From Haloglomus salinum (GTDB taxonomy: Archaea > Halobacteriota > Halobacteria > Halobacteriales > Haloarculaceae): a stretch of DNA of 64,000 nt. The position numbers and the translations under genes were made by a program. The notes under the pieces were generated by a model. That model ran no database searches and was not told where the DNA came from. It saw only the letters and a list, made by a program, of their open reading frames with translations. This document shows positions 4,005 through 40,299 of this stretch, in pieces (the first letter of the stretch is position 1; each line of letters opens with the position of its first letter). Location of the stretch: NCBI RefSeq assembly GCF_024298825.1, contig NZ_CP101153.1:496001-560000 (forward strand). The letters run 5' to 3'.

Positions 4005-4114
4005 CGGCGCGTCCCGCTGGGACAGTGTTCGGGGGGACCGAATCGGCAAGTCTGTCGTGCGTAGGTACTGGTTTGGTCTGGTGTGAATTGCGGCGACAGC
4101 GCCGACGGAGGGCT

Positions 4115-4242
4115 GTTGAAAGCCCCCACGGGCTCGGGGCGCCGCGGCTCGCTGCGGTCCTCGGTCACTCGCTCCGCTCGTTCCCTGCGGTCCTTACTTC
4201 GCCGGGGCACCGCCGAGCCCGCGGCCCCTTTCAGTCCCGCCC
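4115..4242 (+). repeat. Structured dispersed element, copy 1
   Basis: A 128-base element beginning gttgaaagcccc and ending ctttcagtcccgccc. The ends pair (TGAAAG with CTTTCA) and an internal arm cgggctcgg pairs with ccgagcccg. The centre has the family core GGCTCGCTGCGGTCCTCGG, a small hairpin and a second TGCGGTCCTT. Three further copies occur in the window at 4313-4440, 15249-15373 and 39798-39923. It lies between the YkgJ-family gene and nob1, in a gap without genes. Confidence 0.75.
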
Positions 4243-4312
4243 GATGCGGCGTTCCAGGGTCGCGTCGCACCGTGCTAGCTCGGTGCGTGCGCTCCGTGAA
4301 TCAGTCAATCCC

Positions 4313-4440
4313 GGGTGGGAATGGAAGGGGCTGGCCGCCTCGACCCGGTGAGGCGACGCAAGCACCGCAGGGAGCGAACGAAGTGAGCGACCGAGAAGCG
4401 CAGCGAGCCGTAACCGGTCGAGCGGCCAGGGGCTTCCAAC
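4313..4440 (-). repeat. Structured dispersed element, copy 2 (inverted)
   Basis: A 128-base copy in the opposite orientation to copy 1 and 70 bases from it. Read on the minus strand it starts gttggaagcccc and ends cttccattcccaccc, so the terminal stem is TGGAAG/CTTCCA where copy 1 has TGAAAG/CTTTCA. This is a compensatory change. The inner arms (ccgctcgaccggt and accgggtcgaggcgg) differ from copy 1 but still pair. Confidence 0.75.
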
Positions 4441-4545
4441 ACGGTTCTATCCACTACGGAGGTCTCTGCATCTCCCTCCAACTACACACCCTACACCCAC
4501 CGACGAGTCCGACCACCACCTCGGCCGGGACCCGACAGTCTCAAA

Positions 4546-14895: not shown

Positions 14896-14994
14896 AAAGG
14901 AGTGGATTTCTGTATAATTTCCCCACCCCGAGGTCAAGAAGAGCTATTGTCGGTCTGTCTATCGGCGGGTCGATACCCTCGTCAGTCGAGCGGG

Positions 14995-15180
14995 CACGCG
15001 CTGGCGGCTGTGCCGGAGGCCAGCCGCCGCTATCGCGTGCGAGGTCCTCGCGAGCAACGCGAGCGAGGGCTCGGTAGAGCTTGCTCTGCCGGTGGCTGAG
15101 AAGCGCAGGCCGGAGTCGTCCGAGAGAGCGAAGTTCTCTCGTGATTCCGAAAATCTTCGATTTTCGGACGACGAAGCGGA
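14995..15180. repeat. Cluster of hairpins downstream of the SDR gene
   Basis: Consecutive inverted repeats: gcacgcg/cgcgtgc enclosing ggcggct/agccgcc (about 14995-15041); ctcgcg-agcaa-cgcgag; cggtagagc/gctctgccg; cgagaga/tctctcg; and ccgaaaat-cttcg-attttcgg near 15147-15168. The stems are nearly perfect. They could be a transcript 3' end, a structured RNA or remains of palindromic repeats. Confidence 0.55.
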
Positions 15181-15248
15181 GGCCGAGCATCGCAGGCGGT
15201 TGGGGAGGTACGAGGCTCACACAGTCCGACTGACGAACAGCGGTTCCT

Positions 15249-15373
15249 GGCGGAATCGAAGGGCGAGCGGTCTCGACCCATCCCGGACGACGCAAGGACC
15301 GCAAGGAGCGAACGAAGTGAGCGACTGAGGACCGCAGCGAGGCCCGGATGGTCGAGAGCGAGAGGGCTTCGCA
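15249..15373 (-). repeat. Structured dispersed element, copy 4 (inverted)
   Basis: About 125 bases. On the minus strand it reads gcgaagccct..., then the core CCTCGCTGCGGTCCTCAGTC, a hairpin (GCTCACTTCGTTCGCTCC) and TGCGGTCCTTGCG, ending ccttcgattccgcc. The terminal stem is CGAAG/CTTCG, a third variant of the pairing in copies 1-3. The inner arm tcgaccatccgg pairs with ccgggatgggtcga. Confidence 0.7.
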
Positions 15374-15457
15374 GGCGGTTCCGTCACTGTGTAACTCGTG
15401 AGAGAGCAGGAGTGCAGCAAGGACGCCAACGAACCAGCCCGCAGCCCGAACCCACCC

Positions 15458-39797: not shown

Positions 39798-39923
39798 GTT
39801 GAAAGCCCCCGCCCGCTCGACCCTCCCGCGGCTCGCTGCGGTCCTCGGCCTCACTACGTTCGGCCTGCGGTCCTTACATCGCCGGGGGAGGGTCGAGACA
39901 GGCGGCCCATTTCAGTCCCACCC
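39798..39923 (+). repeat. Structured dispersed element, copy 3
   Basis: A 126-base copy beginning gttgaaagcccc and ending tttcagtcccaccc, with core GGCTCGCTGCGGTCCTCGG and the second TGCGGTCCTTACATCGCC. The inner arm ctcgaccctccc pairs with gggagggtcgag, a 12-bp stem whose sequence differs from the other copies. Confidence 0.75.
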
Positions 39924-39955
39924 TGTTGCCTGTCGCATCGAGTGTTCGCGCGTGG

Positions 39956-40081
39956 TGGTTCCAGCGGAGCGCTAGTATCCCCAAACCTCCCCGCGCGAGC
40001 GCCGGTGAGGTGGCGGCCCCTCGCCGTTGGCTCGGGAGCCGCCGACCGGTGGCGCTCGCGCGCTTCCTGGTCTCGGAACCA
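39956..40081. repeat. 126-base palindromic element
   Basis: A long imperfect palindrome 32 bases after copy 3. Terminal arms tggttcc and ggaacca pair, followed inside by gcgcgagcgcc/ggcgctcgcgc (11 bp) and ggcggc/gccgcc. It has no primary-sequence core in common with the four copies of the dispersed element but is the same length. Confidence 0.6.
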
Positions 40082-40299
40082 GCTGGCCGGGCAATCATTC
40101 TCCGGTCGGGAGCGCGTGGCCGAGCGCGGACCCGCGAACCACGCGCGACGCGGGGGAGGGCAGGGGCGGGGGGCCCGTGGAACATCTGTCTCCTAGCGGA
40201 CTCGAAGGGCGAGAGTGCGAGGGCTTCGTACTGGTCGTCGTTGCCGTCGTCCTGAGAGCGTAGTGAAACCGAGAAACTGGCTCAAAAACCGCTACAGTC

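Follow-up and report, generated by a model that had tools for sequence, protein, structure and literature searches.

Integron attC sites are imperfect palindromes that conserve structure over letters and are recognized as a folded single strand. In bacteria, REPINs and BIMEs are mobilized by RAYT transposases and have a palindromic unit of 20–40 nt (PMC3116915). In Haloquadratum, palindrome-associated transposable elements (PATEs) carry palindromes that match the ends of IS605-type transposons, and haloarchaeal MITEs have terminal repeats in common with a named transposon (PMC3119063). Here we analyze a family of ~125-nt hairpins (arms) in a window of 64,000 nt, the whole stretch of Haloglomus salinum DNA under study, and its relatives elsewhere. 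Their best reading is as non-autonomous, transposase-less mobile hairpin elements of Halobacteriales. If so, they are an archaeal counterpart of the bacterial REP/REPIN populations across Halobacteriales, with ~100 copies in some genomes. Searches of the openly accessible literature on haloarchaeal repeats, REPs, MITEs and structured RNAs gave no description of the family, PATEs and REPINs being the nearest, and the main text of RepRanger (PMC12306157) has no word starting with Halo or Natr. A repeat of this size escapes Rfam and ordinary annotation.

An earlier note on the window had listed four copies of a structured element, with named terminal stems, in gene-free DNA. The positions and the stems were given correctly (Table 1), and a covariance model of 43 arm copies (alignment A1) recovers exactly these four full copies within the window, at E 3e-25 to 2e-28; as all four belong to the training set, this recovery shows completeness, not independence. 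ORF and codon analysis indeed places the arms between genes, with only a few overlaps, which involve weakly scoring open frames. The number of copies was far too low, however, as the model finds 107 arms in the 4.19-Mb Haloglomus chromosome at E ≤ 1e-3. Nor are the copies at 4115–4242 and 4313–4440 separate, as had been assumed; they belong to a single composite of ~450 bp, one at either end. For the copy at 15248–15374, no intact second arm was found in the adjoining core (14990–15247). The type B element at 39798 and its site are common to the orthologous stretch of the congener G002.

Table 1. Elements of the arm family in the window
Feature	Position	Strand	Evidence
Whole type A composite: left end, arm 1, short core, inverted arm 2, right end	4052..4498 (ends ±30 nt)	+	Shared ends in paralogues; site empty in G001, G002, G003
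Left outer end, GTGCGTAGGTACTGG...	4052..4114	+	Conserved across type A copies
Arm 1, outer stem TGAAAG/CTTTCA	4115..4242	+	CM 127 bits, E 2e-28; alignment A1
Type A spacer, containing a nested hairpin of its own, GCACCGTGCTAGCTCGGTGC	4243..4312	+	Conserved across type A copies
Arm 2, outer stem TGGAAG/CTTCCA	4313..4440	-	CM 119.6 bits
Right outer end, ...CTCCCTCCAACTACACACC	4441..4498	+	Conserved across type A copies
Degenerate core, CGTACCTCCCCAACC motif and short inserted hairpins	14990..15247	-	Sequence; similar motif in L040
Arm, outer stem CGAAG/CTTCG	15248..15374	-	CM 123 bits
Type B arm 1, outer stem TGAAA/TTTCA	39798..39923	+	CM 114 bits
Type B core, TCCCCAAACCTCCCCGCGC ... CGCGCTTCCTGGTCTCGGAACCAG ... 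GGGAGGGCAGGG (~270 bp, conserved)	39924..40193	+	Alignment of 17 to 21 cores
Type B arm 2, stem base left, hairpin interior deleted	40194..40231	-	CM 22 bits, E 0.003; sequence

Each arm is mostly 110–135 nt long and presents, from the outside inward, a 5-bp outer stem, a conserved, unpaired, C-rich internal loop with C opposite C, a ~10-bp variable stem, further pairs, conserved inner strands (CTCGCTGCGSTCCTC ... CTGCGGTSCTTRCGTCG) and an apical hairpin that varies. The outer stem occurs in three sequence types (GAAAG/CTTTC, GGAAG/CTTCC and CGAAG/CTTCG). The letters of the ~10-bp stem vary between copies while its pairing is kept. RNAalifold on 43 copies gives 30 pairs, 20 of them with changes on both sides. 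With this fold, 94.0% of the cells are paired, compared with 76.5 ± 0.7% in shuffled alignments (0/500 shuffles reach 94.0%), and sliding the partners lowers pairing to 39–50%. The covariation score is 0.422, against 0.142 for shuffled alignments and at most 0.129 for slid partners. Further copies with arms that no longer pair had been named as what would speak against a selected fold. We looked for these and found 94 Haloglomus arms to be 93–96% paired, while 50 Halorubrum copies pair as well, using other letters.

Compensatory changes might also be purely mutational, the product of template switching in palindromes with no selection on the fold. In favor of this, the arms are quasi-palindromes, and their hairpins have suffered deletions of the kind expected for unstable palindromes. 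But template-switch repair, which is self-correcting, would erase loop mismatches, and the C-opposite-C mismatches of the internal loop persist in 42/43 and 43/43 copies while the flanking pairs covary. We therefore read the fold itself as conserved and selected: selection on the arm structure is very probable, and an origin by template switching very improbable. Selection for a folded strand, as originally proposed, is strongly supported; the accompanying phrase “rather than a simple repeat” poses a false alternative, as the family is at the same time a dispersed repeat that moves and is polymorphic for presence or absence.

A genome-wide covariance-model search and a comparison of copy number in related genomes, both suggested by the earlier note, returned 117 copies in each of two congeners in addition to the 107 of the window's own genome (G000; the congeners are G001, G002 and G003). 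Another 94 copies are present in G019, presumably a Halorubrum as judged from the genus in which exact matches to the inner pattern fall; among named genomes, these are in Halorubrum species, Haloglomus halophilum and one uncultured archaeon. A second model (R2), built from arms of five genera and of plasmids, matches 21 of 148 genomes sampled across the phylum. All 21 are Halobacteriales, and no match falls beyond them in this sample. Phage and viral collections gave no arm match.

Neighboring arms in Haloglomus form 22 convergent pairs versus 2 divergent ones. The Haloglomus composites (~450–560 bp) usually present two convergent arms around a conserved non-coding spacer, which measures ~72 bp in type A and ~270–330 bp, with conserved motifs, in type B (17 to 21 cores aligned). 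The type B core itself folds, and whole elements are chains of hairpins; the ends of type A are weakly inverted relative to each other. Inverted doublets are the Haloglomus pattern and Halorubrum units are single: in G019, the element has one arm, after which come a CACCTCACACCTCCCCAGCC motif and two smaller hairpins. Genomes of three other genera (G004, G016 and G011) carry two arms ~25 bp apart. Outside many arms there is a tandem copy of the first ~21 nt of the arm plus ~33 nt, with a period of 54, the number of which varies between orthologous copies; the comparison of L025 with L049 reveals three extra copies of this half-arm repeat in G000 and one in the G002 orthologue. A tandem expansion of CTCACTCGCTGCGCTCCTCACTCGCTTCGCTC, ~850 nt long, lies within the loop of one arm (L026:826-1680). 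Short perfect hairpins (such as CGAAAATC..GATTTTCG, GGCAGAGCAAGCTCTGCC and GGGAGAGCTTCGCTCTCCC) recur in arm loops and cores (window 15050–15180; L020, L028, L034, L036, L040 and L042), as if a smaller repeat family were inserting there.

While the family shares with REPINs and BIMEs its many intergenic hairpins, mostly inverted doublets (in Haloglomus), compensatory changes and mobility without a gene of its own, its arm is ~125 nt long instead of 20–40 nt and combines stacked stems with an internal loop that is conserved. The conserved core of its spacers can reach ~330 bp, and the family is archaeal only. The elements are short, gene-less and inverted at their ends like MITEs, but each arm folds on itself, not just with its partner, and no parent transposon (a gene-bearing element with arm-family ends) was seen among the loci examined. 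In comparison with integron attC sites, the arms are of similar size and likewise keep structure rather than letters; they are dispersed singly or in inverted pairs, whereas attC sites stand in gene cassette arrays.

Elements are absent at orthologous sites of close relatives (two sites in Haloglomus and two in Halorubrum), and therefore the family moves. The type A element of the window and the L012 element are present in G000, and the orthologous sites in G001, G002 and G003 are empty, with ~26–39 nt of variable intergenic DNA between matching flanks. Over ~465 bp, L012 and L013 show a 94–98% match to L047, a copy in G002, and the flanks are unrelated. At the first Halorubrum site, the element is found in 3 of the 29 readable species and is missing in 26; at the second, the flanks are 30–33 nt apart in 12 species and ~500 bp or more apart in G019 and others. 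Parsimony favors insertion as the probable cause of the difference between occupied and empty sites, and we hold the mobility of the arm family to be nearly certain. At three Haloglomus and two Halorubrum sites, the exact ends of which are fuzzy, there is no clean target duplication beyond a possible TGTC at one site. Hundreds of copies, together with presence or absence at one site in 39 Halorubrum species, are ready data for finding the mobilizing enzyme, and the host genomes include Halorubrum, a genus with existing genetics. A local inversion around an element distinguishes L032 (G000, 1635 kb) from L051 (G002, 1453 kb).

We propose that, as an element is excised and inserted, a protein supplied in trans would recognize the folded arm hairpins of a single strand. 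The folded form would be single-stranded DNA, folding would serve transposition, and the requirement for single-strand recognition would maintain the pairing of the arms. We consider it moderately probable that a trans-acting protein moves the elements and needs them folded to do so. The enzyme could be a TnpA (HUH) protein, which would make the arms relatives of the haloarchaeal IS605-type elements (PATEs) or archaeal REPs. PATEs are known in Haloquadratum (PMC3119063) and REPINs in bacteria (PMC3116915); like PATEs, the arm family is haloarchaeal and transposase-free, with near-terminal palindromes, many copies, apparently strain-specific insertions and, apart from the possible TGTC, no evident target duplication, and its inverted doublets and the three Y1_Tnp genes of G000 would be in keeping with such an enzyme. 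However, no full arm is found within 1.5 kb of TnpB at 27 loci of three genomes (G000, G002 and G019), and G019, with its 94 arms, has no match to the Y1 transposase (PF01797), the RAYT-type gene of REPINs. Movement by TnpA is thus quite unlikely. Neither Y1 nor TnpB is supported as a partner, and the family is therefore not filed as REPIN or PATE, despite behaving like both; the comparison with PATEs is with their published description. No transposase gene with arm-type ends was present in any stretch examined.

The strand that folds can be approached through mismatches. A folding RNA or single strand of DNA should tolerate G·U (G·T) over A·C, and the reverse is seen in arm orientation: 55 A·C versus 18 G·U in 94 Haloglomus arms, alike in arm 1 and arm 2, and 71 versus 33 in Halorubrum, although these counts are not independent of ancestry. 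This is a hint that the complement of the written arm may be the folded strand, at either end of the element. It would also suit a set of dispersed, structured non-coding RNAs that are expressed, have a function and spread as copies in the manner of SINEs, the complement being folded and transcribed outward from the core. The raw RNA fold energy is lower for the complement in 50/50 Halorubrum copies, and the organization of elements as hairpin chains and the conservation of an arm upstream of a plasmid gene (below) agree with an RNA as well. Yet shuffle-corrected fold z-scores give no clear strand preference, and there is no strand bias in plasmid arms (20 G·U, 18 A·C) or in type B cores (46 and 53). 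Moreover, Rfam 15 has no family above its gathering threshold and nothing relevant at relaxed E-values, TATA-like sites adjoin only about a quarter of the Halorubrum copies on either side, and orientation to genes is random in Haloglomus. An RNA family is accordingly a doubtful alternative to mobile hairpin DNA. As for transcription terminators or 3' mRNA stabilizers of adjoining genes, the Halorubrum gene 5' of the arm is co-directional in 34/47 cases, but Haloglomus arms have no consistent orientation to their neighbor genes. A terminator needs neither the conserved inner sequence nor the composite architecture, and the presence of the element varies between species at the same gene pair, which leaves such a role extremely unlikely.

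The arm is present also on plasmids. A blastn search with one element matched 33 plasmid records, haloarchaeal throughout among the matches listed. In six of the seven matches examined, the arm is upstream of the same RPA-like OB-fold gene; in the seventh (L069, unannotated), it is upstream of a frame that we take to be CbiG-like. In the reverse approach, ten plasmids were picked for the similarity of the protein that the gene encodes; six of them have a strong model match to the arm, ~440–545 nt from the start codon, a seventh has a weak one, and an eighth carries a disrupted arm. Overall, the plasmid arm is single and lies ~440–560 nt upstream of the RPA-like gene. Between the two there is a conserved, palindrome-rich non-coding block of ~440 bp (L171:2036-2476, with equivalents in L064-L068 and L165-L174). 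The block occurs in 160 plasmid records and is unannotated in 14 of 15 among the matches listed; 16 of its 142 predicted pairs have double changes, and Rfam gave no match to it. It is a candidate plasmid RNA or origin.

The arm and conserved block upstream of the plasmid RPA-like gene suggest an old functional role for the arm. On this basis, chromosomal hairpins and plasmid arm could be one system, in which the plasmid RPA-like protein (or its HNH neighbor) would bind the arm in its folded form and the elements of the chromosome would use it to spread. We consider this unlikely; if true, it would amount to a novel hairpin-mobilizing machinery of archaea. A module consisting of TTCCGGGC, a hairpin and GTTCCGGGC is shared by certain arms and the plasmid block (L027, L039, L014, L058 and plasmid leaders). 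The RPA-like gene is followed on several plasmids by proteins with a C2H2 zinc finger plus HNH_repeat (PF18780) (L064:5687-6649, L068:5749-6711 and L067:5654-6787), and in other plasmids by a TFB-family protein instead.
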